Source: Akkermansia massiliensis
GTDB lineage: Bacteria > Verrucomicrobiota > Verrucomicrobiia > Verrucomicrobiales > Akkermansiaceae
DNA length: 64,000 nucleotides
Assembly: GCF_018847375.1 (NCBI RefSeq)
Contig: NZ_CP072036.1
Span: 992,001 to 1,056,000, forward strand
Direction of reading: 5' to 3'
The notes beneath the pieces were generated by a model, which searched no databases, was not told the DNA's origin, and saw only the letters and a program-made list of their open reading frames with translations. The translations under genes were made by a program, and so were the position numbers. Shown in pieces: positions 3,073 through 64,000 of this stretch (position 1 is its first letter; each line of letters begins with the position of its first letter).

Positions 3073-3152
3073 GTCTGGGACTTATTGAGGGGTTTTTGAG
3101 AGTGGTTGAAAAGAAAAAAATACGGTTTGGAGGCAATATGCCTGAATATATC

Positions 3153-3186: not shown

Positions 3187-3230
3187 AAAATAAATCGGTC
3201 CCGTCTCTCAACAGGCGGTCCCGGAATGCG

Positions 3231-3872: not shown

Positions 3873-3988
3873 ACTTTGCCAAGAGTAGCGCAATTACGGT
3901 TCAGGGCAAGCGGAAAACAACCGGAACCGCCAATTTCAAAGCGCGTTTCCGGAGCGGCAAACATGCGGCGCATGACCCCGGCATGCAA

Positions 3989-4020
3989 ACGCCCCGGCTG
4001 TCGGAGGACGGCCGGGGCGT
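3989..4020 (-). terminator. Strong hairpin terminator after secG
   Basis: ACGCCCCGGC at 3989-3998 and GCCGGGGCGT at 4011-4020 form a perfect 10-bp stem with a 12-base loop, followed on the minus strand by TTTGC. It closes the nrnA-truB-ribF-panD-secG run, whose last stop codon is 18 bases upstream. An A/T-rich tail on the plus-strand side (TTTAAAAA) could make it work in both directions. Confidence 0.75.
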
Positions 4021-4037
4021 TTAAAAAGAACATTCTT

Positions 4038-4517: not shown

Positions 4518-4558
4518 GAACGCGGGGAGTATGTGTGAATTCAGATGGTTTGTAAAGT

Positions 4559-4897: not shown

Positions 4898-4970
4898 GAC
4901 GTCCGAACAACAAACCCCCGATCGCTCTTTCGGTCAAGCCGTCATCCTCCATTTTACGGTTTTCTGTGTC

Positions 4971-5906: not shown

Positions 5907-5910
5907 GCTG

Positions 5911-7655: not shown

Positions 7656-7668
7656 ATGTTCTGCCGCA

Positions 7669-7713
7669 TTTTTATAGAAAAAGCCGCACTTGGACAATCA
7701 CCAAGTGCGGCTT
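7669..7713 (-). terminator. Intrinsic terminator of the small lipoprotein gene
   Basis: AAGCCGCACTTGG (7681-7693) and CCAAGTGCGGCTT (7701-7713) form a perfect 13-bp stem with a 7-base loop, followed on the minus strand by TTTCTATAAAAA. It lies 30 bases after the stop of the small lipoprotein gene and just ahead of nrnA, so it separates the two transcription units. Confidence 0.88.
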
Positions 7714-7742
7714 GAAAAGTCGTACCTAATCCCGGAAGAGGA

Positions 7743-7910
7743 TTACTTCTTGGACTTCATGACCACCGGAGCCACATCCACGGCGGGCTGGTTCAGGTCA
7801 TTGAACTTGGGAAGGGGGGTCAGGGGGGGAGCACCCTGATCCTGACAGCAGCAGGAAGCCATGATGCTCGCCGCAAAAGCGGCAAGAGCCATAACGGTAA
7901 TCTTCTTCAT
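7743..7910 (-). CDS. Small predicted lipoprotein
   Basis: From the ATG at 7910 (MKKITVMALAAFAASIMASC) this is a 55-residue protein. It has a textbook signal peptide and a lipobox ending in three consecutive cysteines (SCCCQ). The mature part is only about 35 residues, Pro-rich, and ends MKSKK. A longer frame from 7961 would add 17 residues that look non-coding. It has its own terminator and appears monocistronic. Function is unknown; small abundant envelope lipoproteins are one possibility. Confidence 0.65.
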   Translation of the reverse strand: MKKITVMALAAFAASIMASCCCQDQGAPPLTPLPKFNDLNQPAVDVAPVVMKSKK

Positions 7911-8130
7911 ATGCGTGGTTAAATGATGGGTGATAAAGGATATGGAAATATCTTGGAGCATAAAAGCATACCATGCGGGCGCCCGTCAATCAAATTTGCT
8001 AAAATCTCCCAAGGGGGCGCCTTTCCGCCTGCTTCTCCCCGCAATCGGGCCTTTCTCAAATGGCAAGACGCATAAATCGCTCGCCTGCGGTCCTCAGGAA
8101 TTATAGTCTCTGCCAAGCCGCTTCCCTTCC

Positions 8131-25704: not shown

Positions 25705-25729
25705 AACGCGTTCTTCCGGAGAACGCGTT
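25705..25729 (-). terminator. Terminator of the tRNA-Tyr gene
   Basis: AACGCGTTCT (25705-25714) and AGAACGCGTT (25720-25729) form a perfect 10-bp stem with a 5-base loop. On the minus strand it is followed by TTTTTTATTG. It lies 14 bases past the CCA end of tRNA-Tyr, so the tRNA is a single-gene unit. Confidence 0.9.
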
Positions 25730-25742
25730 ATGAAAGTAAAAG

Positions 25743-25828
25743 TGGTGGGTAGAGAAGGATTCGAACCTTCGAAAGCGAATGCTAACAGATTTACAGTCTG
25801 CCCCCTTTGACCGCTCGGGAATCTACCC
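25743..25828 (-). tRNA. tRNA-Tyr (anticodon GTA)
   Basis: An 86-base class II tRNA with CCA encoded. The 7-bp acceptor stem is GGGTAGA/TCTACCC. The anticodon loop reads CTGTAAA, giving anticodon GTA. A long variable arm is present, as expected for tRNA-Tyr, and the T-arm contains GGTTCGAATCC. It is transcribed on the minus strand and followed by a strong terminator. Confidence 0.95.
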
Positions 25829-35178: not shown

Positions 35179-35842
35179 TCACCCCCCCTGTTTCTCCACT
35201 ACCTGCCGCCTGACCACGCGCATCACATTCCCTTCATAATCCCAGCTCTCCAGCGACCACCGCACGTTGTAAATGGCCGGAACCCGGTACACGCATTCCA
35301 CGGAAAGCTCCGGTATCCGGTACGGCGGGAAGCGTGCCTTCCACTCTCTTCAGGTTCTTGAAAGCGGCACGGCAAATTTCATACGCCTTTTCCGGATTCT
35401 CATAAGTATTCCCCGGAAGCAGGGCGTCCCGGAGCAGCGCGGCGGGAAGGGAGCCGGAAAACAACAGCCTTGAACCAACTGGGAGAACGGGTTGCCGGGC
35501 ATCCTGGAACAACTGCCTCCCCAGGGTAATGGAACAGCCGTTCAACTGGAAAAACAATTCGTCGGCAATCCAGTCCGTTCCCGCCTTTCCATTCAGGCCC
35601 GGCCATCTGTTTGCGGCCACCTCCACCACTTGCAGCAAGCACGGCACGGACGGCTTTTCCCGTTCCGCCGGCGGAAGGCTCTCCATATAGGCCGCCACAG
35701 GCGACAGGCGCGTTTTTTCAGGCAGGATTACGGGCTGTTCAAAAGGTTCCTCGTCAAAGCCGTCCAGGACCTTTTCAGCTTTCAGCGCTCCCGCGCCCAT
35801 TCCGGACAGGAGGAAAATCAGCAAATAACGTTGCATCATCAA
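35179..35842 (-). pseudogene. Secreted protein gene interrupted by a frameshift
   Basis: The frame from the ATG at 35842 encodes a signal peptide and about 165 normal residues up to FKNLKRVEG, then runs into low-quality residues and stops at 35234. In the adjacent frame, starting at about 35340, a well-formed C terminus continues (FPPYRIPELSVECVYRVP, later NVRWSLESWDYEGNV) and stops at 35179. A single-base change near 35335-35345, in ACGCTTCCC on the minus strand, would join them into one protein of about 220 residues. It may be a real mutation or a sequencing error. Function is unknown; a TonB-like or beta-sheet periplasmic ending is possible. Confidence 0.68.
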
Positions 35843-49913: not shown

Positions 49914-50108
49914 TCACTTCTTCAATTCCTCGGCAATTCTGCCGAGGTTCTTTTCCGTTGCCTTCCTCAACTTTTCCTGCTGTTTCCAGTTCCAGGCTGT
50001 TCTTTCGGATACTCCGGCCTGTTCCGCCAGCCAGCGCACGGCGCCGCTCGTGTCACAGCCCGTTTTCTTCTGGATGACTTCCAGCAGTTGAGTGACATAT
50101 TTGTTCAT
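49914..50108 (-). CDS. Small helix-turn-helix protein
   Basis: From the ATG at 50108 (MNKYVTQLLEVIQKKTG) this is a 64-residue protein with an HTH pattern, AVRWLAEQAGVSERTAWNWKQQEK, of the Cro/phage-regulator kind. It is the last gene of the 69-aa/IbrA/IbrB unit, 17 bases after the IbrB-like stop. It could regulate the cassette. A longer frame from 50243 overlaps the IbrB gene and is unlikely. Confidence 0.7.
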   Translation of the reverse strand: MNKYVTQLLEVIQKKTGCDTSGAVRWLAEQAGVSERTAWNWKQQEKLRKATEKNLGRIAEELKK

Positions 50109-50125: not shown

Positions 50126-50642
50126 TTATTTCGATTCCCACGCCCGGCTGAATTCGCCGTCCCGGAACAGGGCCGCAATGCCGCTGAGCTGCTTGAGGCG
50201 CAACAACTCCTCCGCGTCCATGCCGAGGTTTTTGAGTATCCACGCATCCGACATGCCCGCTTCCGTCAGTTCCTGGATAATGCTGGTCATCAGTCCGATA
50301 TTGTGAGACCCACGGGCACGGTTGTGCCTAATAGTGGAGGCCATGCGGTTTCCAAGAGGCTTGTCGATAACGGCCACCGGCATCATGCCATCCTCCCGTT
50401 CGTAGATGTCGCGGTAAGTTTTCATGATCTGGCAGCGGTGGAAGCCGTCAACGATTTCATAGGTGCCGTCCTCCAGTTGATAGCAGACAATCGGCATCGT
50501 GTAGCCGTCCTCCTTGATGCTCTGGTAGAGGAGCTTCATTTCAGGCGGCGCCACACTGTTCGGGTTATAGGCATTGGAGCGGATTTGGTCCAGCGGAACG
50601 CGCCGGATTTGATAAACGGGGGATTGATAGGGGGGGGTTCAT
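50126..50642 (-). CDS. ibrB: IbrB-like ParB-domain protein, out of frame at a C8 tract
   Basis: The in-frame part from the ATG at 50554 codes 142 residues with the ParB/sulfiredoxin-like signature IVDGFHRCQIM and then NRARGSHNIGLM. The same frame runs upstream in good codons (VYQIRRVPLDQIRSNAYNPN) but meets a stop. An ATG at 50642 overlaps the IbrA stop as ATGA and is followed by AA and eight Cs (50630-50637). Removing one C would give a full 172-residue protein starting MNPPYQ. The gene is thus either phase-off, mutated or misread. IbrB acts with IbrA as a regulator in E. coli mobile elements. Confidence 0.75.
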
Positions 50643-51934
50643 GAAATGTTGCGGTATTTGTTGACGGCGGCACGGCGCCGGGCAATCGCTCCCTTGGTTG
50701 GACTGAATCCGGCATATCTGCAGAAATAGTCATTTTTCATGATGCAGATGCACATGCGCTTGTAAGAGGGCACCTGCCGGAAATTGCTGACGGGCATGTC
50801 GTCGGGATAACCCATGAATTGAACGATATCGCGTCCATCGTAGCGGCCCGATTTTCCCGTCACGGCAGCCAGCGGGTAGGCCGCCAGCACTTCATCGGCG
50901 GTTCCGGGATCGACGGTTCCCCCCTGCATCCAGTACCTTTTGGATTTTTCCAGGATGTTGTTGTAGTGGGCCGCCGTCCTCGCATCCATCGTGGAAAGCA
51001 GGAATTCATAATACGATTTCCAGGTATGGCCGGGCGGCAGCTTGATGGTTTTCCAGCCCATGGCCGTCGTGCCTCCGTACAGGCCCGTAAAATTGACGCC
51101 GTTGACCCGGCCGATCATGCGCGCCCAGTTGGAGGGATCGATCACTTTGTAGAGCTTCAGGCTTTCCTGGGCACAGTCGTTGAACGGGCTTGCCACCCGC
51201 ATCTGCCCGGCAGTAAGGCCCGCCTGGTACAAGAGGTCATAAAGACGGTTGTAGTCAAAACCAAAGCGGGCGGTGGCCGTCCAAATATCGCTGACGCGCC
51301 AGTCGTAAAGAGGGTAAACGTTGGCCGTCACGGCACTGGTCTGCGTAATCCACTTCCTGCCCTCGTAGGATCTCCTTTTTTTGCCGCGTGCCACGGCCGC
51401 GTACCTGTTGAGGCTTTCATCCGCCCGCAGCCCCACCATGACGGCGGTGGTGCCGCGCTTTTTGGCAAAATGGCGCGAGAGTTTGTCCTGGAATTCGTAG
51501 TCCACCATGCCGTGCCGGAACGGAACGTCCAGATTCCCTTCGTGAACCACATAGGGATTTTCCGGCATGGCCCGCACCCACAGTTTTTTTTTGGCGGCGT
51601 CCCACGGCGTCCAGTAAGGTTCCCCCAGGGCGCATGCCGACTGGGCCTTGATCGGCACGCAGTACCACATTTTACGAATGCCTGGGAACTGTTCCAGGAA
51701 CGTCCGGGTCACATACTCGGTCGTCATCTGGTACTGGGCCTCATAATCAAGGTGGTACATGGTCAGCTTGTCCAGCAGACCATGTTCGTTGGCGTAATCG
51801 TAGCACAGATTGAGCATGACGCCGCTGTCCTTGCCGCCCGAGAAGGCCACCAGAACATTATCAAACTCCTGGAAGCAATAGGCTATGCGCTCCAGGGCCG
51901 CTTCATAGACGTTTTTGTCCAGGTAGGTTTTCAC
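50639..51934 (-). CDS. ibrA: IbrA-like PAPS-reductase-family (DUF3440) PP-loop protein
   Basis: This 431-residue protein has the PP-loop SGGKDS at residues 32-37 (VLVAFSGGKDSGVM), MVGLRADESLNR near 166 and YPLYDWRVSDIW near 208, as in PAPS reductase and the DndC group, followed by the DUF3440 extension. In E. coli, IbrA with IbrB activates eib genes; the biochemical activity is not known. The ATG overlaps the stop of the 69-residue gene, and the stop overlaps the ibrB start, so the three are translationally coupled. Confidence 0.88.
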   Translation of the reverse strand: MKTYLDKNVYEAALERIAYCFQEFDNVLVAFSGGKDSGVMLNLCYDYANEHGLLDKLTMYHLDYEAQYQMTTEYVTRTFLEQFPGIRKMWYCVPIKAQSACALGEPYWTPWDAAKKKLWVRAMPENPYVVHEGNLDVPFRHGMVDYEFQDKLSRHFAKKRGTTAVMVGLRADESLNRYAAVARGKKRRSYEGRKWITQTSAVTANVYPLYDWRVSDIWTATARFGFDYNRLYDLLYQAGLTAGQMRVASPFNDCAQESLKLYKVIDPSNWARMIGRVNGVNFTGLYGGTTAMGWKTIKLPPGHTWKSYYEFLLSTMDARTAAHYNNILEKSKRYWMQGGTVDPGTADEVLAAYPLAAVTGKSGRYDGRDIVQFMGYPDDMPVSNFRQVPSYKRMCICIMKNDYFCRYAGFSPTKGAIARRRAAVNKYRNIS

Positions 51935-52140
51935 AATTCTTCCAGAGCCTTTCTTCCGTCACCCATCGTCAATTCCCTGCCGGGCGGAAATACGCCGGCA
52001 CGGATACTATTGACGGAGGACATGTACTTTTTATGAAGTTCTTTTAGTGGCTTGCAGTCGATAGGGATATCCCATGCTTTTCCAAACAGGGCTGCAACGC
52101 CTTTATGCCCGCATAAGTAAATAACATCATGTTTTTCCAT
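51931..52140 (-). CDS. Small protein heading the Ibr-like cassette
   Basis: This 69-residue soluble protein (MEKHDVIYLCGHKGVAALFG...) has no motif I know. Its stop overlaps the IbrA-like start (ATGA), which is good evidence that it is expressed. A CGHKG segment and two charged helices are the only notable features. It is the first gene of the four-gene cassette; AT-rich DNA upstream (52140-52260) likely holds the promoter. Confidence 0.65.
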   Translation of the reverse strand: MEKHDVIYLCGHKGVAALFGKAWDIPIDCKPLKELHKKYMSSVNSIRAGVFPPGRELTMGDGRKALEEL

Positions 52141-52881: not shown

Positions 52882-52973
52882 TTCCGAATCGCTTATTCTG
52901 TAAGAATTTATTGCCAATGGTCAGAAAAAAGTCAGAAAAAGAGATTCCTTTATGATCCGTTTTGGGTACTGTA

Positions 52974-54272
52974 ATGAGCATGGGAAAGGTCTCGTCATAC
53001 AAAACAGGTGACATTGCACAGAATATCTATGAGCGAGTAAAAATCCAGATTCCGGGCATCTACATCCTCCACCAACCCAAAAGGAAGAGCCCATGGTATA
53101 TCCAGATCAAACGGGATCTTCCTGCCGGGGTGAAGAAGAATCATTTTTATCGTACTGTGGATGAAGCCATTGAAGCATACAATCGATTCGCAGATATCGT
53201 CGTCAGGCAAGAAGCAGAATTTTTGCTGACTCCAACAGAAAGACAAGCAATTCGCCTTTGGCGCAGACACCGGGAGAAGCGCATGCAGGAAGGTAAGAAA
53301 TCACAGACGCTGGAGGAGGCTATTCGGTACGCTATGGATGCGGAACATAAACAGGATATAGCCCGGCGAACGATTGAAGACCTGTTCCACGAATATAGCC
53401 TTTATAAAGAAAAAGAAGCTGAAACCAGAAAGGCCGATACCGCCGTCAAGCAATGCAGGCGCAACCTGGCCGATACGAAAAGGACGTTGGATTTGTCTGA
53501 CGCTATTTACATTGATGAACTTGGTTCCGTAGAAGCTCTTGAAGAAGTCGAATCTCTCCTGCGTGATACTGTGGTTGGCAGAGATGGAGGCCTTCCGTCT
53601 CAAACGACCATCAAACATTACCGAACAGCCCTGAATACATTCCTGAATTGGTGCGAAAAGCGGGCCTATATCGCGAGGAACCCGATAGTCCTGCTTCCCC
53701 CTATTCAGGCAGAAGAACCTACCCGGGAATCCTATGCTCCACAAGAACTCTCATCCCTGCTTCACACAGCCATCGGTGTATGTCCCAAAGCCATTCCCTG
53801 GTTGATAACGGCAGCATTTATGGGAGTTCGCCCTAGAGAATTGACTCGTTTGACATGGAGAGAAATAGGGCAAGCCCTTGGAAACGGTTTCCTGAAAATA
53901 GAGCATGTTAAATCAAAGACTGGCCAAGACCGGCTTATCCCCGTTAATGAAGCATTCCGTGCCTGGATGACATGGTGGCTTCAGAAAAAAGGCAAACAAT
54001 CGGGCTACCTGCTGGCGGGGGATACGAGAGAGCAACGGGAATGGAATCAGGGCCGGGATATCATGGCGTTAAAAGAAGCAGGCATTGAATGGAAAAAAGA
54101 TGGGCTACGGCATTCTTACGGAACCTACATGTGTGCCATTGAACCGAATACTTCAGTTGTTGCCAAAGCCATGGGCAACAGCGTGGAGATTTTGCTTAAG
54201 CACTATGTCCAAGCGAGAACAGACAAGGAGGGAGAAGGCTATTTTGCTATTCGGCCCCAAAATCAACAATAG
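52974..54272 (+). CDS. int: Tyrosine-type site-specific integrase
   Basis: The protein of about 432 residues has an N-terminal arm-binding region, a SAM-like core-binding domain (about 130-235) and the catalytic domain with Arg in MGVRPRELTRLTW near residue 286, the Lys region HVKSKTGQDRLIPV, the box GLRHSYGTYM and the nucleophile Tyr in LLKHYVQ. The first His of the usual HxLRH box is replaced (DGLRH), which is common in this group. ATG at 52974 is chosen over an upstream TTG. It drives excision and integration at tRNA-Asn. Confidence 0.92.
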   Translation: MSMGKVSSYKTGDIAQNIYERVKIQIPGIYILHQPKRKSPWYIQIKRDLPAGVKKNHFYRTVDEAIEAYNRFADIVVRQEAEFLLTPTERQAIRLWRRHREKRMQEGKKSQTLEEAIRYAMDAEHKQDIARRTIEDLFHEYSLYKEKEAETRKADTAVKQCRRNLADTKRTLDLSDAIYIDELGSVEALEEVESLLRDTVVGRDGGLPSQTTIKHYRTALNTFLNWCEKRAYIARNPIVLLPPIQAEEPTRESYAPQELSSLLHTAIGVCPKAIPWLITAAFMGVRPRELTRLTWREIGQALGNGFLKIEHVKSKTGQDRLIPVNEAFRAWMTWWLQKKGKQSGYLLAGDTREQREWNQGRDIMALKEAGIEWKKDGLRHSYGTYMCAIEPNTSVVAKAMGNSVEILLKHYVQARTDKEGEGYFAIRPQNQQ

Positions 54273-54281
54273 AAGCTATTC

Positions 54282-55484
54282 ATGAGTGACAACGATACAA
54301 GGCCATCACTAGAATCGATCTTATTTCCTTGCCCAGAACAGAACGGCGGAGGGAGATTAAGACTAAGAGAATGTGATGTGGTAATGGGGCAAAGCTCCGG
54401 CAGGATTGAATTGCTTTATAATCATAACCTTAACATCCAAGCCAAGTTCGAAGATTCTTCGACTCGACAGTCTCCTCAAAAAGGAAAGCGTATCCTCAAA
54501 GTATCAATACCTTCTATCTCATCACATCAACTTGTTGTACACATCTGTTGCCGTCATTATACTCGTATTCAAAGAAGCAAAAAACCGAGCCGTTTGCCTT
54601 CTGAAATAAAATCTCCTCCAGGAACACTTGAATTTATTTTCCATAAAAGCGATAATGGCAGATACGATATTAAAGTTCGATTTATAGATGCAAGTGTTTT
54701 CAAGCAAGATCCTATTTATTTTTGGTATGGCGAAGCATACAATTTATATTCAATGGGTATTTGGTCACCTCGTCATGGTTGGAACAATGCCTTTCTAGAA
54801 TATGTATGGAGCCATGCAGAATTGTTCGGTATGCGCCCAGAATCGGTATATCGACGTCAACTATATGATCAAGAAGGATATGAGCCAGATGAAGCTGATC
54901 TAGCTATTAATAACTGGTTGCAGCTTGAAAATCTACATCAACAGACGATCAAACTACAACATGAACACGAGATAGCTTCCGATATTTTGTCTGACACTCT
55001 TTTCTGGCTAATGTTAAAGTACTGCAAAGAGCCACTTGATAAAGAGATAAAAGATATAAGGCAAATGATCAAAGGTCTTAGTCCAAGAAAACCTATATCC
55101 CCTGTATGGGAATATTCCATAAAGGAATTTATTGTATTTAATAAATTTGATTCTGAATCGTTCTTAAAGAGAATCCCGTGGTTTGCTCCTTGGACTTATA
55201 TTCAAAAATGGCATGAAATAAGTCGTCCAGGGTTGAGGTGGCTTCTGGATCGAATTAAGGAAGTAATGTCAGTGTATATGGATTACCCTCTACGTCCGAA
55301 ACAAATGGAGAATATGGAAAAGATTCTTACATTTTTACACAATCACACTCAAATGAATCCCTCTGAGAAAAAAATCACAATCCCATGGCCTCGTGCAGGA
55401 GATATAGGGGGAACTCCACGTTCCCTGACGGATGCGGGAATGGGCTGGCTTGTGTGTGGACGAGGTAAGCGCGCAACATGCTAG
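54282..55484 (+). CDS. Unknown AT-rich cargo gene next to the integrase
   Basis: This 400-residue protein is coded by DNA clearly poorer in GC than the rest of the window. It has no membrane segment or family motif I know. Visible features are a beta-rich N-terminal third, WYGEAYNLYSMGIWSPRHGW near residue 160, a helical middle (LQLENLHQQTIKLQHEHEIASD) and a Trp/Pro-rich end (IPWFAPWTYIQKWHEISRPG). It follows int after 9 bases, so may be expressed with it. The position is typical for a recently gained cargo or defence gene. No function is assigned. Confidence 0.6.
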   Translation: MSDNDTRPSLESILFPCPEQNGGGRLRLRECDVVMGQSSGRIELLYNHNLNIQAKFEDSSTRQSPQKGKRILKVSIPSISSHQLVVHICCRHYTRIQRSKKPSRLPSEIKSPPGTLEFIFHKSDNGRYDIKVRFIDASVFKQDPIYFWYGEAYNLYSMGIWSPRHGWNNAFLEYVWSHAELFGMRPESVYRRQLYDQEGYEPDEADLAINNWLQLENLHQQTIKLQHEHEIASDILSDTLFWLMLKYCKEPLDKEIKDIRQMIKGLSPRKPISPVWEYSIKEFIVFNKFDSESFLKRIPWFAPWTYIQKWHEISRPGLRWLLDRIKEVMSVYMDYPLRPKQMENMEKILTFLHNHTQMNPSEKKITIPWPRAGDIGGTPRSLTDAGMGWLVCGRGKRATC

Positions 55485-55959
55485 TTCCAGAGCATGCTTC
55501 GGGATATCTACAATAGTCCTGATCTGCTTACTTCCATTATAACGCTTGTGCCATTTTATCAGATCGGATTTTTTGGTACTTTTCCAAGCAGGCAAGTTCG
55601 GTTGTTTTCGGAGCACTTCTCACTGATCTCCTCCGCCAGTAGGACGAATCCTATCCAAGCACCGAGAAAATGTGGTGTCGATTCCCGCGTGACTACCTGA
55701 GAGATTACAGTATGACAAAATCAGCATATTCATCACAAGTATTTCATAATGTTCATTATACGTAATTAAACGCATATTCTATTAATACATCCCATTATGT
55801 TCACTTTTTGCTCAGAAATCGAGGATATTCCTCGCTGTAAAAGGCCTAATAAACCCTACTATTTCTTAATTAAACGCAATATATAAACATTGCAAACGTC
55901 TTATTATTAGCAGTATATGACGTGTTGACATTCTGCAGAGAAAATTCAATTCTCCGCAC
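55485..55959. other. AT-rich regulatory gap before the excisionase-like gene
   Basis: No gene is supported in these 475 bp. A 12-bp direct repeat TAATTAAACGCA occurs at 55763-55774 and 55867-55878. A short hairpin, CGAGGA-TAT-TCCTCG, is at 55820-55834. A second loosely repeated piece, AT(A/T)ATGTTCA, occurs near 55746 and 55793. This looks like a control or replication-start region with protein-binding repeats. Confidence 0.6.
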
Positions 55960-56193
55960 ATGTCACCGACAAAACCACAGAGACAACTTCGAGATTTGGG
56001 CGGCATTGCCCATATCATGGATAGGGCCGAACTGGCTCAACACTTGAAGATCTCGACCAAGAAGGTAGACGAACTCGTAAAATGCGGACTTCCCTACTTT
56101 TTGGTCCAGAACAACCGCCGTGGTGGAATCAAAAGGTTCCGCCTTTTGGATGTCCACGCATGGCTTGACCGCCAAACCGAATTGGCAAAATAA
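55960..56193 (+). CDS. Excisionase-like / MerR-type HTH protein
   Basis: This 77-residue protein contains a helix-turn-helix of the HTH_17/excisionase kind, DRAELAQHLKISTKKVDELVKCGLP, followed by a wing (RRGGIKRFRLLDVHAWLDRQ). Such proteins help the integrase in excision or regulate element genes. It sits just after the repeat-rich gap and is followed by the primase gene after 101 bases. The exact role is inferred. Confidence 0.78.
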   Translation: MSPTKPQRQLRDLGGIAHIMDRAELAQHLKISTKKVDELVKCGLPYFLVQNNRRGGIKRFRLLDVHAWLDRQTELAK

Positions 56194-56294
56194 GAAACCC
56201 CGCCCGCGCATGCTGCGATCAGGCGGAGTTCCAAGGATGGGTATCCTCGAATATCCTACCAAATCACAGCTGCCGGGCAACCACAAAGAACACA

Positions 56295-57416
56295 ATGTTT
56301 ATTGACTATCAAAACATCAAGAAAGACCTGACAGCATTCAACGCTACCTTGGCTCACATCTATAAAGAAAGAGGGCGTAGTCTGTACCTCAACGAACTCT
56401 ATAGTAATCACCCAGGGCATCAGCAGACCGTTTGTTGTCCCATTCATAACGATCATAATCCATCCTGCTCTTTCAGCGTCACGGAGGACGGAACTATTCT
56501 GTTCAACTGCTTTGCTTGCGATGCAGCAGGAACAATTTTCGACCTGGTGTGCGCTCACAAGCAATGGACGATGCAGGAGAATTATTCCGACATCATCCAT
56601 TTCATCAAGGAAAGTATGCAGTCGGATAACGATTTCTCCGCAATTCCTGAGTTACAACCCGCAGTTAAGGCTGTCATATCCAAGGAAACACAGCCTCTAA
56701 CCAATATTGAGGAAATGGGATGTGAAAGCCTTCGTATGGCTATTTTCCTAGAACACCTCAAGGTCCAGCGAATGGCGCTTATTCTTGGTTTTGCTGAAGA
56801 AACCCTGATGTACATGGCCGCCAGGCCATGGTATGCGTTAGGCTTAAGCCCGGAAGGAGGGCTTTGCTTCCTCTATACAGACGAGAATGGAAAGTATATC
56901 GGGGTCAAAGCTCGCTTGAAAGAACCCTGGGCCACCCGATTTGGATTCAGTATGAATGGGAATCCTTACACCATTCCCGGTCCTACTGACAGCCCTTTCA
57001 TGAAAGTTTGCGGGACAGTAACCATGTGGGGCATTCATGCCATCCCTGGGTCTACCCACTGCATTATTACGGAGGGAGAAACCGATGCCATCGCTGCCAT
57101 GGATGCCATTCTTCACTCGGGCATGCCTGAAAAAGAGTTCCCTGCTATCGTCTCCATTAACGGTGTGAAGAGTTTTAATCCTGAACGGGCGGAATATTTT
57201 CGAGGTAAGCATGTCCTTTTGGCCTTTGATGCAGACGAGGCAGGAGAAGAAGGGAAAGCCAAGGCGACGAGTCTCCTGGCAGGTATTGCCGCTTCTGTTC
57301 ACGCTTTAATATTGCCCAACGGTAAAAAGGATGTTCGAGAGGCCAATATAAGCCACCAGAACTATTTGATCGGGGAGATTCTTTCTTTCACGGCTATCGG
57401 AAAGGAGGTCATCTGA
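56295..57416 (+). CDS. Element DNA primase (CHC2 zinc finger plus TOPRIM)
   Basis: This 373-residue protein has a CHC2-type zinc finger, with Cys48-Pro-Ile-His51 and Cys72-x2-Cys75 (NCFACDAAGTIFDLV). A TOPRIM domain follows, with Glu260 in ITEGETDAIA and the DADEAG motif at 312-317. This matches primases of phages, plasmids and integrative elements rather than the 600-residue chromosomal DnaG. It primes replication of the element together with the ATPase encoded 2 bases downstream. Confidence 0.87.
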   Translation: MFIDYQNIKKDLTAFNATLAHIYKERGRSLYLNELYSNHPGHQQTVCCPIHNDHNPSCSFSVTEDGTILFNCFACDAAGTIFDLVCAHKQWTMQENYSDIIHFIKESMQSDNDFSAIPELQPAVKAVISKETQPLTNIEEMGCESLRMAIFLEHLKVQRMALILGFAEETLMYMAARPWYALGLSPEGGLCFLYTDENGKYIGVKARLKEPWATRFGFSMNGNPYTIPGPTDSPFMKVCGTVTMWGIHAIPGSTHCIITEGETDAIAAMDAILHSGMPEKEFPAIVSINGVKSFNPERAEYFRGKHVLLAFDADEAGEEGKAKATSLLAGIAASVHALILPNGKKDVREANISHQNYLIGEILSFTAIGKEVI

Positions 57417-57418
57417 TC

Positions 57419-58885
57419 ATGCAACAGCTCATTCCGCCCTGTGAACCACAGCGACCCGATATTTCGTTCCCAACGGAACTATTGCCGGAAGTTCTGAAAA
57501 GAACCGTACAAAATGTTGTCGAGGCCTTTCGAGTACCGGAAAACATTGTAGGAGTTCAGGTTCTTGGCCTGCTCTCGGGATGTCTCGGGAAAGTCTACTC
57601 CCTGCAATTCAACGGAAACAGGGTCCGATCCAATCTGTTTTTACTGATTGTTGAAGGCTCTGGAGTAGGGAAATCGCGTCCTATGGATTACCTGAGAAAA
57701 GTCATCACAGAAATAGAAACAGCCAGGGAGTATTCCCTGGCGACACAAAAATCTCTGTGGAAACGGGAAAAAAAGAGGCTCGATGAACAATACCGCAAAC
57801 TGGGGGACTCAATGCCACGACCATCTCCGGATTTACAGGAAGAGGCAATGCAAGAAAGAGCCGACCTGTTACTCAAAATTCATTCTCTGGAGCGGCGGCT
57901 TGCCTGCCATGGTGATATTACCATTGAAGACATTACCCCGGAGGCTTTAGTCCAAAAATTATCCGATTCACCAGACCAATCCTTATTGTCAGCTTCATCC
58001 GAAGCTCGTGAACAAGTCAAGAAAGTCATGGTGGGGTATGGCGGTAACAATCTGTCAGGAGAAAAACCATATCTGGCCGGCTTCAGCGGCGATGCGATCA
58101 AAACAGACCGTATCGGGCGATCTGGAGACCGGGTCAACAGTCCATGTCTTGCCCTGGTATGGGCAACCCAATATGACTCCAGGGAACAAGTCCTGGGGGA
58201 TAAAGGAATGCTTCAATCCGGTTTCATGGCCCGTTGCCTGGTCTCATCAAGCTTTCGGGACCTGGAACGGGGGCAAATCGTTACCTATGAACCAGACAAA
58301 AATCCGGACCCCGACCTTAACGGATGGAACGCCCTGATCAAAAATATTTTAGCCCGTCGACCCATAATGATTGATGAATCGGATACGATTTCTTTTGTAG
58401 AAGCTAAAGTAGATAACCCAGAACTGGTACTAAATGCAATTTGTAATCTGAAAGCCCTGTGTGTGACGTATCATGCTGAAGTAGAACATGAGGCGCGAAT
58501 CATGGAAATAGCTTACCGCTTGTTGCTTGTGTTGGCTGTGGCAGATCACCCGGATCAACCTGTCGTAACAATCGACCATGCTCGTTGTGTTCGTGAACTT
58601 GTCAGACACTTTCTCTCATGCAGTAGCCGTTTGACAGGAGACTCCTTCCATGACCGGCTACGTACATTACTGGGATACATTTACAAGGAGGCTCAGAAGA
58701 AAAACTGGCCTTTGAATGGAAAGGCTCCCATACGCAGCGGACAGATTACACGCTCACGCAAGGTTAAACTCGACGACATCAAGGAAATGGCCCGTTTGTT
58801 CCCAGGTGACTTGCGCATCGAAGAAACGGATCGTTGCGATTCCTTTCTGGTGTACCTCCTCCAGAAGGAACTCCGGGGTTGTTGA
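57419..58885 (+). CDS. DUF3987-type ATPase, putative element replicative helicase
   Basis: This 488-residue protein has a Walker A, GSGVGKS, at residues 80-86 (LFLLIVEGSGVGKS), a charged coiled region (about 100-160), and later ALVWATQYDSREQVLGDKG with a Walker-B-like hydrophobic strand. These mark the DUF3987 group, often next to primases in satellites and integrative elements. The ATG lies 2 bases after the primase stop, behind a strong AGGAGG. Helicase activity is inferred from this pairing. Confidence 0.8.
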   Translation: MQQLIPPCEPQRPDISFPTELLPEVLKRTVQNVVEAFRVPENIVGVQVLGLLSGCLGKVYSLQFNGNRVRSNLFLLIVEGSGVGKSRPMDYLRKVITEIETAREYSLATQKSLWKREKKRLDEQYRKLGDSMPRPSPDLQEEAMQERADLLLKIHSLERRLACHGDITIEDITPEALVQKLSDSPDQSLLSASSEAREQVKKVMVGYGGNNLSGEKPYLAGFSGDAIKTDRIGRSGDRVNSPCLALVWATQYDSREQVLGDKGMLQSGFMARCLVSSSFRDLERGQIVTYEPDKNPDPDLNGWNALIKNILARRPIMIDESDTISFVEAKVDNPELVLNAICNLKALCVTYHAEVEHEARIMEIAYRLLLVLAVADHPDQPVVTIDHARCVRELVRHFLSCSSRLTGDSFHDRLRTLLGYIYKEAQKKNWPLNGKAPIRSGQITRSRKVKLDDIKEMARLFPGDLRIEETDRCDSFLVYLLQKELRGC

Positions 58886-58914
58886 AACGGAAAAATATGA
58901 CATAACAAGCTATG

Positions 58915-59039
58915 AATGAATAACTACAATACTCCGTTTACTACAAGGGAGATACCATCTATTATATTATTTCATATACTAAATATGAATTTATCCAGGT
59001 TCCCCCTTCGTAGTTCAGGGAGTTCTGTAGTTATTCATT
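58915..59039. repeat. 42-bp imperfect inverted repeat around an AT-rich core
   Basis: Arms are 58915-58956 and 58998-59039. They share AATGAATAACTACA, ACTCC and ACTAC blocks in the same order; about 30 of 42 positions match. The 41-bp centre is nearly pure A/T. It sits between the convergent ends of the ATPase gene and the AbiEi-like gene. It could be a two-way terminator, a replication origin or a small insertion-derived element. Confidence 0.75.
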
Positions 59040-59121
59040 ATCAATAATCAAGAAAGACAGCAATATTTCTGAAGGTTGGACGGTGTTTCTTAAAAAACGC
59101 CGTCCAACCTTCCATTTACAT

Positions 59122-59898
59122 TCAGGAAAGCCCGAAAGGCATATAACGGGGGAACTCCCGTTCCAGCTCTTCCGGCACCGTGATCCTGAAATCAGGAACG
59201 TACATTCCCGGTGTGTGCAGAGAATATATGCTGTTCGACAGGGCTTTCCGGACAACCGAGTCCCGGGTACAAGCCCATGCCCAATCCCGCGACACCTTGG
59301 AGGCAAGGTAGAAGAACCAGCGCTTGACCTTTTCCCTCTGGCAGCATTCCAGGACCTGCCCCAGATCATCCATGTCCATTTCTTCCAGTTGCTCCATGGC
59401 CCGGATGATGATACGGCAATCATCAAGATTCCTGATCATGTCAATGCTCTCAAGCAATGCCCGGGCGGGAGTAGACCAGTACAGTCCGTCACGTTCGATG
59501 ATACCGCAGCATTCATCAAAAAAGTATTCGTCGTTGAATATTCTGTATGGAACTGTATGAATCCGCCCCGAAAAATTAAAAACATCTGGATATTTTCCCG
59601 TTTCCCGGCGATCAAACAATTGTATTCGTTCCGGTTCGGGAGCTCCGAGCAGAAGGTGCAGAATGGTCCGTCCACCTATGTGGCCGCTCTGCGATTCTTT
59701 CTGGAATGTTTTCAGCGCTTCATACAGACAGAGAGGAACGTGACGAGCCCAAACTCCGTACCCGCAATGGACAAGAACACCTTCTTTCCCGGCACGGGTC
59801 AGATCCTGGTTGGTAAAGCCTCGCTGCCTGAGTTCCTTCGTCGTCATCACGGCATTGACAGGCAGCTGGTTCATTTTCTGCATTTTCGTCATCTTCAT
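59122..59898 (-). CDS. AbiEi-family antitoxin-like protein
   Basis: This 258-residue protein opens with a winged-helix of the AbiEi N-terminal type, AVMTTKELRQRGFTNQDLTR, then a GVLVHCGYGVWAR wing. The rest is the longer DNA-binding and dimer domain, with the STPARALLESIDMIRNLDDC segment typical of AbiEi proteins. In type IV systems AbiEi represses its operon and offsets the AbiEii nucleotidyltransferase. No AbiEii follows here; the next gene downstream is the ATPase on the other strand. It overlaps the upstream gene's stop (TAATG). Confidence 0.75.
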   Translation of the reverse strand: MKMTKMQKMNQLPVNAVMTTKELRQRGFTNQDLTRAGKEGVLVHCGYGVWARHVPLCLYEALKTFQKESQSGHIGGRTILHLLLGAPEPERIQLFDRRETGKYPDVFNFSGRIHTVPYRIFNDEYFFDECCGIIERDGLYWSTPARALLESIDMIRNLDDCRIIIRAMEQLEEMDMDDLGQVLECCQREKVKRWFFYLASKVSRDWAWACTRDSVVRKALSNSIYSLHTPGMYVPDFRITVPEELEREFPRYMPFGLS

Positions 59899-60821
59899 TA
59901 TTGTTCGTGGTTGGAGGTGAGGGGAACCGGTTCCCGGGGGATGTCGTTCATGTTGCGGTTCAGGGATTCCACTTTGTTCCGGGCAAGTTGTTCCAGCTCC
60001 TGCTTCATCGTATCCCCGAGGCTGATCAGTTGACCAAATCCATCGGGCTTGACCTGATGCGCTGCATTGACGGCGACCTGTCTGATGACAGGACCCAGGG
60101 GATGCCGGGAGCTGTTGGCTATGCCCATTCCGGTTGCCATGGCGGCCCGCTCCAGCATGTCCCGGCAGATCCGGTCTGTTTTCTCGGCATTGTTTCCCTG
60201 GGCATAGGGGCTGGCCATTTGCAGCCCGGCAAGGAAGGCCGTCTGCCTGACGGTACTGTTGAATCCAGTCCGGAGAAGCAATTCCCTGTTGCCCGCTGCG
60301 TCGAAATAATCTGGACGCAGTTCGTCGATTCTTCCATTGGGGTAGACAATGCCGGAGAGGTAAGTTTGTTCATCCCGGCGATCCCTGACGTTGAAGAAGA
60401 GTTCTTCGTGAGCACGAATAACCTCCTGTGGAATTCCGCTGATCCGACTGATTTCGTCGTAATTACATCCGTCATTCAGGAGGAGGGCGTGAATAAGATT
60501 GCATGCCCCTGCTGCCATCTCGCCTGAAAGAGCGATGGCTTCCATCAGGACGGCATTGTTTTCTTTACCCATGAGGAGTTTGATTGTTCTGCGTATTGTC
60601 TGTTCCTTGAACCAGGCTGGCGGCATGATTTCTTCCCGGGCATATGACTTGGCGATGATCCACCCGGCATCGGGACGTCCCAGCAAGGTCTGAATCCTCC
60701 TGATTCTATTCGCCATCGCCAAAGGGATAACCCGAAGAACAGAGTCGTCATGATCCGGGGAAAGCCATGTATCGGGATGAGGGACCAGTGGGGCGATTCT
60801 TTCGATGATTGCGCGTTTCAT
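59898..60821 (-). CDS. Unknown element protein coupled to the AbiEi-like gene
   Basis: This 307-residue, mainly helical soluble protein has no motif I recognise. It has two repeated helical parts with conserved LIHALLLNDGCNYDEISRISG and an HTH-like look near residue 115-130, and a TAFLAGLQMASPYAQGN segment near 195. Its stop overlaps the AbiEi-like start, so the two are translationally coupled. A role as partner, regulator or toxin is possible, but not shown by sequence. Confidence 0.6.
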   Translation of the reverse strand: MKRAIIERIAPLVPHPDTWLSPDHDDSVLRVIPLAMANRIRRIQTLLGRPDAGWIIAKSYAREEIMPPAWFKEQTIRRTIKLLMGKENNAVLMEAIALSGEMAAGACNLIHALLLNDGCNYDEISRISGIPQEVIRAHEELFFNVRDRRDEQTYLSGIVYPNGRIDELRPDYFDAAGNRELLLRTGFNSTVRQTAFLAGLQMASPYAQGNNAEKTDRICRDMLERAAMATGMGIANSSRHPLGPVIRQVAVNAAHQVKPDGFGQLISLGDTMKQELEQLARNKVESLNRNMNDIPREPVPLTSNHEQ

Positions 60822-60905
60822 GAAGGAATTTTAAATTCAGCGCCTGCAAAAAGCAACACATTGATATTCAGATTGAAAACAAAGGATTTTTCATGACTGA
60901 CAGCT

Positions 60906-60940
60906 AAAAAACAGCTCTCCTTCATGATGAAGAAGAGCTG
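60906..60940 (-). terminator. Terminator of the DUF932 operon
   Basis: CAGCTCTcCTTCAT (from 60912) and ATGAAGaAGAGCTG (to 60940) form a near-perfect stem of about 13 bp, followed on the minus strand by a TTTTTT run (60906-60911). It closes the unit that ends with the 43-residue gene and separates it from the unit starting at 60821. Confidence 0.85.
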
Positions 60941-60953
60941 CTGAATGGAGGCC

Positions 60954-61085
60954 TTATCCGTCCTTGGCTTCCAGCGTCCTGACAATGGCCTGAGCCCCTC
61001 GTTTGTACACGGTCACGGCCAACAGCTCTCCGTCTTGAAAGACGGCCCAGAAGCGGGTGCCCTTGTACTTTTCAATCGTCAGCAT
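60954..61085 (-). CDS. 43-residue element protein (too short for most gene finders)
   Basis: Start ATG at 61085, stop TAA at 60954. The sequence MLTIEKYKGTRFWAVFQDGE and then VTVYKRGAQAIVRTLEAKDG is a compact beta-rich protein with the pattern RFWAV...VTVYKRGA, which I recall from short proteins of plasmids and integrative elements. Its start overlaps the end of the upstream gene by 14 bases. Function is unknown. Confidence 0.7.
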   Translation of the reverse strand: MLTIEKYKGTRFWAVFQDGELLAVTVYKRGAQAIVRTLEAKDG

Positions 61086-61476
61086 CAGGCAACACCTCCT
61101 TTCCGGGATGATGGCGGGACTTGAGCAGATGTCTCAGTACGGCCCCGATATTGGCCTCATACATGTCCCGTGTGTGCTTGTTGCAGGCGACGGCATACAG
61201 ATACCGGACATCAAGAATGTCGATGGCTTCACCGCAGAGCCGGATGCAGCTTTCAAGGGTAGCCAGCTCCGCCTCCGGAATCGGCGAATCCAGCAGGATG
61301 CTTTCGTCGTCGTCCAGAGACTTCTGCTGTTCTTCCGTCAGTTCCGGGAGATTCACCAGAGCCGTCATGGACGGCCCGTGAATCGTCAGCGTGCTCAGCC
61401 CCAGCGATGGATCGTTCTGATGACTGCTGCAAAGCGACACTGCCTTCCCGATCCGGGCCAATAGCTCCGTATCCAC
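61072..61476 (-). CDS. Unknown element protein, 134 residues, start unsure
   Basis: The frame starts with GTG at 61476 (VDTELLARIGKAV) and has no ATG. Upstream in the same frame are good codons (ADPIRTYLEV), ending at a TGA at about 61542. That TGA overlaps the ATG of another frame, 61543, which starts MKTMPIIAQLRSTS. A frameshift near 61490-61515 would join them to a protein of about 156 residues. The body is acidic and helical with a Ser/His-containing end. No family is recognised. Confidence 0.6.
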   Translation of the reverse strand: MDTELLARIGKAVSLCSSHQNDPSLGLSTLTIHGPSMTALVNLPELTEEQQKSLDDDESILLDSPIPEAELATLESCIRLCGEAIDILDVRYLYAVACNKHTRDMYEANIGAVLRHLLKSRHHPGKEVLPDADD

Positions 61477-61571
61477 TTCCAGATACGTCCGTATCGGATC
61501 CGCTCGTGGAACGCAGTTGCGCGATGATGGGCATCGTCTTCATGTCTCGTTCTCTTCCTTTCCTGTCGGAG

Positions 61572-61730
61572 TTACTTGCAGAAGAAGGCGATGACGCCCA
61601 TGAGCAACAGCACGGCTAGCAGGTACGGTGCTACGGCCACCAGAGCCGACAGGACGCCGACGACAATCGGTCCCAGCAGACACAGCAGTACGAGCGCCAC
61701 CAGGGCGATCATGATGCCTTTCATGTTCAT
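61572..61730 (-). CDS. Small membrane protein of the element
   Basis: Start ATG at 61730 (MNMKGIMIALVALVLLCLLG). This 52-residue protein is almost wholly hydrophobic, with two membrane helices joined by a short Gly/Pro turn, and ends AFFCK. It overlaps no other gene and fits the unit with the wHTH gene, whose stop is 8 bases upstream. Function is unknown; a holin-like or accessory role is possible. Confidence 0.62.
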   Translation of the reverse strand: MNMKGIMIALVALVLLCLLGPIVVGVLSALVAVAPYLLAVLLLMGVIAFFCK

Positions 61731-61738
61731 GACGTGCC

Positions 61739-62071
61739 TCATGCGGGAATTCTTGTCCGGGATGATCGACGAACCGGAGCGGCAGCGGACACCCATTGCC
61801 TGAGCGCCTGCCGTCCGGCATAGGTAATCAGCCAGCAATCGGACCGAAGCAGAAATTCCTCTTCCTTTGTGCGGATGATGAACTCCCGCCCGGCCAGACC
61901 TCGGACGGAATGCCTGACGCTTTCCTGCTTGATGCCATGGCATTCCGCCATGATCTCCTTGTCACTGCGTTCAAAGTCGCCGTGAAGGTACAGGAGAATG
62001 GACAGCTCCAGTCCGGTCAGGGACGGAGCCCGCCCCAGACGTTTCAACCGTAGATGTTGTTTTCTTCTCAT
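61739..62071 (-). CDS. Small winged-helix (MarR-like) DNA-binding protein
   Basis: This 110-residue basic protein has a winged-helix pattern: LELSILLYLHGDFERSDKEIMA, then GIKQESVRHSVRGLAGREFI (recognition helix) and a wing with TKEEEFLLRSDCWLIT. It is likely a regulator of the DUF932 unit. It follows the DUF932 gene by 12 bases. Confidence 0.72.
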   Translation of the reverse strand: MRRKQHLRLKRLGRAPSLTGLELSILLYLHGDFERSDKEIMAECHGIKQESVRHSVRGLAGREFIIRTKEEEFLLRSDCWLITYAGRQALRQWVSAAAPVRRSSRTRIPA

Positions 62072-62083
62072 GGTCGTTTCAGA

Positions 62084-62695
62084 TCAGTTGTTCAGGGTAT
62101 AGCTGTCGGCCAGATCCCAGAGCTCCCGGTTCAGGCGTGTGTTTCCGTCAATGCCATTGAGCGCACGCAGGGAGCGGCGACGATATACGCCGTCCGTCTG
62201 CGGTTTTAAAGGAACGCCTCCCCGGATCAGGTTTTCCTGAACCCGGTTGAAGCACTGCCAGACGGTAGCTGGTCCTCCCGCCGTAAAGCCGATGTCGTTC
62301 CAGCGCCGGGGCGACAGAAGGGCTTCGGGACGTATTTTGTCTTCGTAGTCGTCTCCCATTCGCAGCTGTGCCGCTTCATGAACGAAGTCCACCTGACGCT
62401 TGTAGGGTAGTTCGACTCCCTGCATGCGGTGAATGTCGTCCATGATCCGGGGCGTTTCAGAGGCCAGCCGGAGACTGGCGGCGATCACCTCTTCTCCGGT
62501 ATGACCCATGTGACGAATGTTGATCGCGGCAATACGCGCCCCGACAATCAGACCGTTGGTACACACCAGCCGGAAGATACCGGCCATGAGCTGGTAGGAG
62601 CAGCTGCCGTTGTGACTGTTGATCATGACCACTTCGATGCGCTGCTCACGGTTGCGATAGAGTTCACGAGTGGATGTATGAGTATTCATATTCAT
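62084..62695 (-). CDS. DUF932-family element protein
   Basis: This 203-residue protein has the DUF932 features SHNGSCSYQLMAGIFRLVCTNGLIVG near residue 27 and WQCFNRVQENLIRGG near 146. The family occurs on plasmids, satellites and integrative elements (for example YfjQ/YafZ in E. coli), usually with 250-300 residues, so this copy is short at the N terminus. It is the first gene of the minus-strand unit and lies behind a terminator-like hairpin. Function is not known. Confidence 0.78.
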   Translation of the reverse strand: MNMNTHTSTRELYRNREQRIEVVMINSHNGSCSYQLMAGIFRLVCTNGLIVGARIAAINIRHMGHTGEEVIAASLRLASETPRIMDDIHRMQGVELPYKRQVDFVHEAAQLRMGDDYEDKIRPEALLSPRRWNDIGFTAGGPATVWQCFNRVQENLIRGGVPLKPQTDGVYRRRSLRALNGIDGNTRLNRELWDLADSYTLNN

Positions 62696-62716
62696 TGATG
62701 ATTGGTTTGTTGCAAC

Positions 62717-62752
62717 AAAAAGGCCGCCTCCCGGAACAAGGCCGGGAGGCGG
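62717..62752 (-). promoter_or_regulatory. Terminator-like hairpin in the leader of the DUF932 operon
   Basis: CCGCCTCCCGG (62724-62734) and CCGGGAGGCGG (62742-62752) form a perfect 11-bp stem with a 7-base loop. On the minus strand it is followed by CCTTTTTG. It lies 22 bases ahead of the DUF932 start codon, with no minus-strand gene before it. It may stop transcription in the leader (attenuation) or insulate from antisense transcripts. Confidence 0.65.
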
Positions 62753-62893
62753 GCACAGGCAGGAAGCAGAGAAAGCTACTTCCTCAGGGATATATGACGT
62801 GAGAAGAGAGTGATTTTCAGGATGTCAGCAACTCTTTGTAAATATATGAATGCAATGATACATATTTTATATGTACAAGAGCATATCCGTGTG

Positions 62894-62899
62894 TATAAT
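62894..62899 (+). promoter_or_regulatory. -10 box just ahead of the AbiEi-like gene
   Basis: A consensus TATAAT ends 6 bases ahead of the ATG at 62906. Transcription would start at or next to the start codon, giving a leaderless mRNA. A weak -35 may lie near 62870. The DNA around is AT-rich. Confidence 0.55.
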
Positions 62900-62905
62900 A
62901 CTGTT

Positions 62906-63892
62906 ATGAGTATGTGGGAACCTTGGCAAAAAATCTGGATCAGGCTGTTCCATGAGTCCCTTCAGATAGAACTTGTTGATGGAGCAAAGCTGCCTTTGTC
63001 CCTCATCAAGCGTTTCCAATATGCCTACGCTTCTTGCCGGGGTAACAGGTTTTTGGCCGCTATGGACATGGATGTTGCAACTCCCAATCTTTACAGGCAG
63101 AACCTTCAACAGTTGGAAACTCTTTTCAAGCTTCCTGTTGTTTTTTTCCTGACCCGGACCCCGTCTTACCAGCGTAGCCGTATGATCAAGGCTAATGTCC
63201 CGTTCATGACCATGGACGGGTACGCGTATATGCCGCAGTTTTACATTCACTTGAAGACATGGGAACAGCATAAAAAAATTGAAAAGGAACCTCGTGAATT
63301 TCTCTCTCCCGTGGCTCAAGTCCTTGTGCTACGTCATATTCTTTTCCATGATATTCACGACCAGAATCTGCGACAAATAGGTTCCAGATTACCTTATTCG
63401 GCCATGTCGCTCAGTAATGCCAAAAATGAACTCGTCACCCATGGTCTGTGTCATTACGACGGGGTAACCACCAGGGGGCGCTTCAATATGAATCTTCCTG
63501 GTAATGTCTTGTGGGAAAAGGTGCTTCCCTTGCTGAGAAGCCCTGTTCAAAAACAACTTCACGTTCGTTTGCTTCCATTTCAGAGACGATTGCCTTTGGC
63601 GGGAGAGTCGGCGTTGAGCAGGCAGACTCTCCTTGTTGACGGAAACATCCCTACATATGCTGTGGGCAAACAGTCGATTCGGGAACTCTTTCTTCCCGGA
63701 GATCATCCGGAATCCGAACACGAGGAGGCTCAGGCCATCATCCAGCAATGGATGTATCCACCGGAAATACTCATGCAGCCGGGTGGCAAGTGGGTGGATC
63801 CTCTTTCGCTTTACCTTTCCCTTCGGGATTCATCGGACGATCGCGTCATTCAGGAACTCAATAAACTGCCCCTCTCATGCTTCGAAAAATAG
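62906..63892 (+). CDS. AbiEi-like antitoxin / wHTH protein of a type IV toxin-antitoxin pair
   Basis: The protein of about 328 residues has an alpha/beta N-terminal domain (PVVFFLTRTPSYQRSRMI near 77), a winged-helix with LRQIGSRLPYSAMSLSNAKNEL near 160, and a C-terminal part with PLAGESALSRQTLL near 232, a pattern seen in AbiEi-like regulators. Its end overlaps by 16 bases the start of an AbiEii-like gene. This order and coupling fit a type IV toxin-antitoxin system. The start at 62906 (MSMWEPW) is chosen because a TATAAT sits just before it. Confidence 0.7.
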   Translation: MSMWEPWQKIWIRLFHESLQIELVDGAKLPLSLIKRFQYAYASCRGNRFLAAMDMDVATPNLYRQNLQQLETLFKLPVVFFLTRTPSYQRSRMIKANVPFMTMDGYAYMPQFYIHLKTWEQHKKIEKEPREFLSPVAQVLVLRHILFHDIHDQNLRQIGSRLPYSAMSLSNAKNELVTHGLCHYDGVTTRGRFNMNLPGNVLWEKVLPLLRSPVQKQLHVRLLPFQRRLPLAGESALSRQTLLVDGNIPTYAVGKQSIRELFLPGDHPESEHEEAQAIIQQWMYPPEILMQPGGKWVDPLSLYLSLRDSSDDRVIQELNKLPLSCFEK

Positions 63893-64000
63893 AACATTTC
63901 TGCCACTACTTCGCCGAGTACAGTAATGCCTATGCGCTCATCGGAGGCGCGGCATGTACAGCATGGTACTCCGATCATATTCCTTCCTTTCGAGGGACGG
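63877..64000 (+). CDS. AbiEii-like nucleotidyltransferase toxin (partial, cut by window)
   Basis: The first 41 residues are in view. They contain NAYALIGGAACTAW and end FRGT, matching the GG...(R)xTxD opening of AbiEii/AbiGii-type nucleotidyltransferases (the metal-binding DxD would follow outside the window). The ATG lies inside the last codons of the AbiEi-like gene. Such toxins modify tRNA ends or other targets in related systems. The call rests on a short stretch plus context. Confidence 0.68.
   Translation, partial: MLRKIEHFCHYFAEYSNAYALIGGAACTAWYSDHIPSFRGT

Follow-up and report, generated by a model that had tools for sequence, protein, structure and literature searches.

A run of eight cytosines at the start of an ibrB-like gene of Akkermansia massiliensis: recent slippage, sequencing error or switch

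The stretch of Akkermansia massiliensis DNA analysed here (the window, 64,000 nucleotides) carries on its minus strand a gene pair resembling ibrA and ibrB, and a run of eight cytosines (C8) lies just behind the start codon of the second gene. This position raises the question of whether the run is a phase-variable switch, a recent mutation or an error in the assembly. The best explanation, in which our confidence is about even, is that C8 truly exists and arose very recently by strand slippage, at a C run of chance origin in one Akkermansia lineage; that the run is an evolved switch is not shown. The sequences, reading frames, relatives and selection on the gene are observed, and the reality of the eighth C is inferred. 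The features of the locus are collected in Table 1.

Table 1. Features of the ibrAB locus, with positions in the window
Feature	Position	Strand	Remark
69-aa upstream ORF	51931..52140	-	end overlaps ibrA start; in 5 of 8 close genomes
ibrA-like gene	50639..51934	-	431 aa; PAPS_reduct and DUF3440; intact
A9 run inside ibrA	51584..51592	-	homopolymer, in frame
ibrB start codon ATG	50640..50642	-	overlaps ibrA stop TGA (50641-50639) as ATGA
ATG frame with eight Cs	50565..50642	-	25 residues, then stop
C8 run	50630..50637	-	nt 6-13 from the A of the ibrB ATG
IbrB-like frame, ParB_N domain	50126..50638	-	170 residues and stop; open, without own start here
Longest common-start ORF left in the IbrB frame	50126..50554	-	GTG start, 142 aa; no Shine-Dalgarno match
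64-aa downstream gene	49914..50108	-	follows ibrB in all 8 close genomes

The ibrA-like gene encodes a protein with matches to PF01507 and PF11922 and with weak PADLOC matches to DndC and BrxP. A sequence search for solved chains returned none for it at E 0.01 or better, and the gene was matched from end to end in four of the close genomes described below. The frame behind it matches PF02195 above the cut-off (30.8 against 26.3 bits) and also phrog_2159; its name is the one given by NCBI to a relative, P0045, that is 74% identical. A structure model of this frame (mean pLDDT 83, first strand at residues 11–15) matched in the PDB, in this order, Noc, ParB, KorB and then sulfiredoxin and SbnI, with moderate query-normalised TM-scores (0.33–0.46 among the 50 matches listed), and the sole solved chain reached by sequence at E 0.01 or better is ParB 4umk (E 0.0022). 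Judged by sequence and model, the product is predicted to be an IbrB-like protein with the ParB/Srx fold: the frame combines the ParB_N domain and this fold with an adjoining upstream PAPS-reductase/DUF3440 gene and an ATGA overlap. The domain and homologue matches support the naming of the two genes as IbrA-like and IbrB-like in the preliminary description. In an alignment of 40 sequences picked from the matches, residues N22, Y24, N25, P26 and N27 are invariant.

Small ORFs lie on both sides of the pair. The downstream gene gave no Pfam match and possibly encodes a DNA-binding protein, a guess from its sequence. The upstream ORF is present in the genomes G001, G066, G060, G061 and G062; the 69-aa query gave no match in G063, G064 or G065, nor in the locus L006, which resembles G064 and for which the 4000 bases before ibrA were included. 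The A9 run inside ibrA is also A9 in G001 and G066, is A8 behind a C in four close genomes and is interrupted in two.

Across the end of ibrA and the start of ibrB, the minus strand reads ...CGCAACATTTC ATGA A CCCCCCCC TATCAATCC, with AA between the ATG and the C run, which is exactly eight bases long at 50637-50630 and occupies codons 2–5 of ibrB. The preliminary description had placed an ATG at 50642 that overlaps the IbrA-like stop and is followed by AA and eight Cs, and had proposed that the frame is lost with eight Cs and opens into a full ParB-like protein with seven. The sequence confirms the layout; the ATG frame stops after its 25 residues and leaves the IbrB frame (50638-50126) startless, and the nearest genome, G001, has seven Cs at the same place and an intact, open ibrB. 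The IbrB frame begins directly behind the ibrA TGA, and the C8 state puts IbrB in phase with ibrA.

No Shine-Dalgarno-like match occurs in the 20 nt before the ibrB ATG, and ibrB is probably translated by coupling to ibrA. The product of the GTG at 50554 would be without residues 1–28, and N22, Y24–N27 and the first strand are missing from it. Because the first strand would be dropped along with N22, Y24, N25, P26 and N27, all of them invariant, a downstream GTG or ATG was rejected as the true ibrB start. The ATG at 50497, residue 48 of the IbrB frame, is preceded by AAGGAGG; translation of a shorter IbrB could begin here, or the match may be chance.

An IbrB relative was found in 10 of 76 Akkermansia genomes, eight of them close (92–100%) and two distant (G016 and G014); G001 carries a second, distant copy in addition. 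In the genome collection, three Akkermansia muciniphila loci (L005, L006 and L007) have IbrA identities of 90–97%, and the other 19 loci of the collection reach at most 49%. All eight close genomes share the ATGA start, so the possibility that homologues start elsewhere does not hold for close relatives. The comparison of the tract in related genomes, proposed in the same description, gave a divided answer: the in-frame C7 of G001 agrees with a frame-setting tract, but seven of the eight close genomes lack a long C run, G066 having C5 and the remaining six C2.

The survey of ibrB starts was extended to 160 loci from genomes and viral contigs, from which three without an ibrB match and 30 duplicates were removed. 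An in-frame start before residue 9 is present in all 127 other distinct ibrB loci, and a G/C run of at least 6 near the start is present in one of them, that of G001. The C run is thus a novelty of the lineage of the window and G001, a tract conserved across ibrB genes is ruled out, and there is no sign that selection kept the tract in relatives. The first residues of ibrB are unconserved, and a C run may have been free to lengthen in these codons.

At the protein level, 28 of 120 listed representatives were examined; six begin MNPPYQ and one MNPPGQ, in frame as in the lineage of the window. None of the 120 is shorter than 151 aa, and so no second C8 copy was seen among them. By our estimate the 142-aa product of a C8 copy should have scored into this list, and it is possible that such products are clustered under longer representatives. 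P0017 (151 aa, 9 members) is without the normal N-terminus, has a few foreign residues joined at about residue 26 and does not fit the C8 product; presumably its N-terminus is an adapter or contig-end artefact. An exact pattern search of viral contigs gave seven matches, none of them encoding an ibrA or ibrB relative.

Selection on IbrB bears on the age of the break. The window and G001 differ by seven synonymous and no nonsynonymous changes over 160 codons. When polarised with G066, G063, G064, G065 and G060, the changes at codons 13, 36, 102, 103 and 144 fall on the branch of the window and are all synonymous (at least five synonymous, no amino-acid change); codon 13 is CGC also in G060, codon 109 is unpolarised and codon 141 changed in G001. 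Synonymous sites make up about 22% (105/480), and five of five changes being synonymous by chance would have a probability of about 0.0005, mutation bias ignored. The dN/dS between close species is 0.03–0.10 (six pairs tried). Since only synonymous changes and low dN/dS are found, IbrB was needed along the branch of the window almost to the present, and the ParB-like protein of the preliminary description experienced strong purifying selection until recently. The absence of amino-acid changes in IbrB after the divergence from G001 led us to reject a long-dead pseudogene. This leaves a break that is very recent, reversible, tolerated or an error.

We propose the following course for the recent slipped-strand change that we prefer. 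The C5 and C2 of relatives and the C7 of G001 suggest that base changes made the run longer, within early ibrB codons that are not conserved; the strain sequenced here would then have acquired its eighth C by slippage. After completing ibrA, which stays intact, ribosomes that begin again at the overlapping ATG would in this state give a 25-residue peptide, and full IbrB would be lost or much reduced. The state would probably be leaky, with some IbrB expected from +1 slippage; in E. coli, CCC-C right after AUG is reported to give up to about 1% +1 frameshifting (PMC4519876). The same slippage could restore C7, and the change would be reversible in principle. Against this explanation, the eighth C is seen in a single assembly of unknown make, and a second C8 genome was not found.

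The window and G001 align over about 44.7 kb in three stretches, with 98.8–99.5% DNA identity. Positions 1-8087, 35333-35439 and 52882-64000 of the window are without a G001 counterpart, and the comparison of frame breaks below covers the aligned part. Beside ibrA, the alignment ends at 52881, and the region 52962-64000 encodes a tyrosine integrase (52962-54272), a primase-like protein (CHC2/Toprim) and a DUF3987 protein; it is probably an integrated mobile element that is not at this place in the compared G001 segment. Beside tRNA-Tyr (25743-25828), at 25729-25756 of the window, G001 is about 12 kb longer (11,970 bases; the arms overlap by 28 bases in the window), and the extra DNA has the appearance of an element that integrated at the end of tRNA-Tyr.

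The main rival is a sequencing or assembly error, possible although less probable than a real change; the strain would then truly have seven Cs and an intact ibrB. Only one base would be wrong, and it would lie in the window's longest G/C run, where sequencing errs most; G001, the only near-identical genome, has C7. The otherwise unchanged 160 codons of IbrB also favour it, as do the in-frame MNPP starts of seven of the 28 representatives examined and the lack of any representative as short as the C8 product among the 120 listed. On the other side stands the comparison with G001, in which no other gene was shown to be broken. The aligned 44.7 kb contain 11 indels, and the one in ibrB is counted as gene-breaking because the ATGA start is common to the eight close genomes. 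Six of the others lie outside ORFs of at least 200 aa, three near the breakpoint at 25.74 kb beside tRNA-Tyr and three at 35.02–35.19 kb, and the indels at 41866 and 47827 are also outside such ORFs. The indel at 35685 falls in an ORF that gave no Pfam match and is unequal in length between the window and G001 (202 against 167 aa), and here a small broken gene is possible; the indel at 38521 lies upstream of an MFS transporter domain and leaves the frame open in the window and in G001 alike (526 and 469 aa).

The lengths of homopolymers were compared in the same alignment. Three of 79 homopolymers of at least 6 in the aligned window differ in length from G001, namely C8/C7 in ibrB, C7/C6 between genes and T6/T7 at 47827. 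All 12 A/T runs of 7–9 and all 20 G/C runs of 6 match G001 in length, which speaks against an error, and two of the seven G/C runs of at least 7 differ. General homopolymer noise in the assembly is unsupported by this comparison. As a pattern, the differences resemble what natural slippage of the longest G/C runs would leave, and the two of seven would be expected from both natural slippage and homopolymer error.

The frequency of long runs shows how far the C8 run is unusual in itself. No other G/C run of this length occurs in the window, against 13.1 expected from dinucleotide shuffles, and such runs are thus depleted rather than enriched. In G001, C8 matches on both strands of 3.3 Mb number 63 overlapping ones, that is 50 distinct runs or about one per 66 kb, and by this rate one C8 run in a window of 64 kb is ordinary. 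What is unusual is the place of C8 and the broken frame, rather than the existence of the run. From the G001 runs, 20 stretches holding 21 of the 50 were sampled (all seven of at least 9, and 14 runs of 8 from contig C1 in list order), and 18 of the 21 lie inside a mechanical ORF of at least 200 aa, shadow ORFs possibly included. One is a G9 run in frame within dnaG, a likely essential gene (L098, G001:C1:522910-525910, 1500-1508), and would be a useful negative control for tract-based switch calls; another G9 run is in frame within an aminotransferase gene. Because such runs stand in frame in ordinary genes of G001, a long run alone is weak evidence of a switch. The longest C/G run found in G001 is a C12 upstream of a 213-aa ORF (L102, G001:C2:309800-312800, 1495-1506), a better tract than C8 for testing length variation. 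A G11 run (L100, G001:C1:1478290-1481290, 1495-1505) stands shortly before an ORF with RHS repeats that starts at 1529; the reading around this run resembles ATP synthase beta chain, as we take it.

It is improbable that the run is a selected contingency locus, with populations alternating between an on state (C7) and an off state (C8) of IbrAB-dependent regulation and the A9 run of ibrA perhaps taking part. The run lies at the very 5′ end of ibrB, and ibrAB holds two of the four runs of at least 8 in the window, a count noticed after the fact. Tract length does change the frame of a conserved gene, out of frame with C8 in the window and in frame with C7 in G001, but these are two sequences only, with one genome for each length. 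G9 phase variation is reported in A. muciniphila (PMC13055324), and in the available text of an Akkermansia genome paper long mononucleotide runs are over-represented at gene ends, with runs >8 bp in 17 genes (PMC3048395); in meningococci, runs of at least 8 are described as predominantly variable (PMC5084427). Against a contingency locus, the tract is restricted to one lineage, C7–C8 is short, runs of equal or greater length stand in frame in G001 genes such as dnaG, and no second C8 was found among the 120 listed representatives, the viral-contig matches and the close genomes. The slipped-strand layout of the preliminary description thus stands in so far as the tract alters the frame of a conserved gene, and falls short in that the tract is not conserved and long runs are common in G001. 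IbrAB of E. coli ECOR-9 is reported to activate prophage eib (immunoglobulin-binding) genes, and nothing in this analysis extends that result to Akkermansia.

Altered frames among ibrAB representatives were also considered. In one ibrA representative, P0132, the frame seems to be shifted at the A run, which would favour a contingency locus, but this protein has other small changes too and may be an error. Frame-altered-looking ibrAB representatives include P0005, P0008, P0011, P0014, P0131 (22 members) and P0132 (42 members), and those of a DtxR-like control (P0246, P0250, P0255, P0259 and P0260) are all singletons. Such counts were rejected as a gauge of natural ibrAB decay, since members of 90% clusters may be contig-end fragments. 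In P0006, P0007, P0011 and P0014, IbrB runs into the downstream 64-aa gene through differing changes near the end of ibrB, and these are natural fusions or errors.

A fuller form of the contingency locus has a young two-tract system, in which C7/C8 and perhaps A9 flip a regulator in the gut and the off state is leaky through CCC-C +1 slippage or through rare IbrA-IbrB fusions by TGA read-through; such fusions are conceivable because the IbrB frame of the C8 state continues the ibrA frame, and we rate this form a little lower still. A selected switch is possible but unsupported, a minority hypothesis that can be tested. Very unlikely is a tolerated frame change, in which CCC-C +1 slippage, polymerase slippage, TGA read-through or the internal start at ATG 50497 gives enough product: +1 slippage at CCC-C beside a start codon does occur in E. 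coli, at a rate of at most about 1% (PMC4519876), IbrB shares the frame of ibrA past the TGA and AAGGAGG precedes the ATG 50497, but the known slippage rate is low and internal starts drop invariant residues.

The recent slipped-strand change would matter in different ways according to its nature. If real and reversible, it would add a further phase-variable gene to Akkermansia, a putative regulator rather than a surface-polysaccharide gene, and strains that naturally differ in the on and off state could then serve to identify the targets of ibrAB. Should it prove to be an error or a chance mutation, the case shows that C8 behind a start codon does not suffice for calling a switch. No study known to us has tested what ibrAB does in gut commensals, and, judged by title, a tract in ibrB was not found in the literature on IbrA/IbrB or on Akkermansia homopolymer phase variation.

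Slipped-strand changes in a G/C run close to the beginning of a gene have precedents, in Akkermansia among others. The available text on Amuc_1413 (PMC13055324) describes a case from the same genus in which a 5′ G/C homopolymer gains one base and the product is truncated; over 1,000 generations of A. muciniphila MucT the change from G9 to G10 recurred, reached 87–91% of reads and was accompanied by loss of mucin binding. In 100 public A. muciniphila genomes the tract was 9G in 32, 8G in three and 10G in one, and read fractions and the mucin-binding phenotype were tested. The ibrB tract differs in being shorter, in having its off length in one genome and in being known from sequence alone. The ybdN-ybdM operon of E. 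coli K-12 is alike by description, with a DUF3440 PAPS reductase-like gene and a ParB-like gene, and unlike in its repression by YbdO/CitR; the available text mentions no tract (PMC9068703). The ibrA/ibrB pair is reported to be carried by phages and prophages (PMC4490671, PMC4541368, PMC8813620). The Akkermansia genes share with that pair, and with the pair of E. coli ECOR-9, the order of PAPS_reduct and DUF3440 followed by a ParB fold in adjacent, co-oriented genes, and they differ from the ECOR-9 pair in the 64-aa gene conserved behind ibrB and in the 69-aa ORF that precedes ibrA in five of the eight close genomes.
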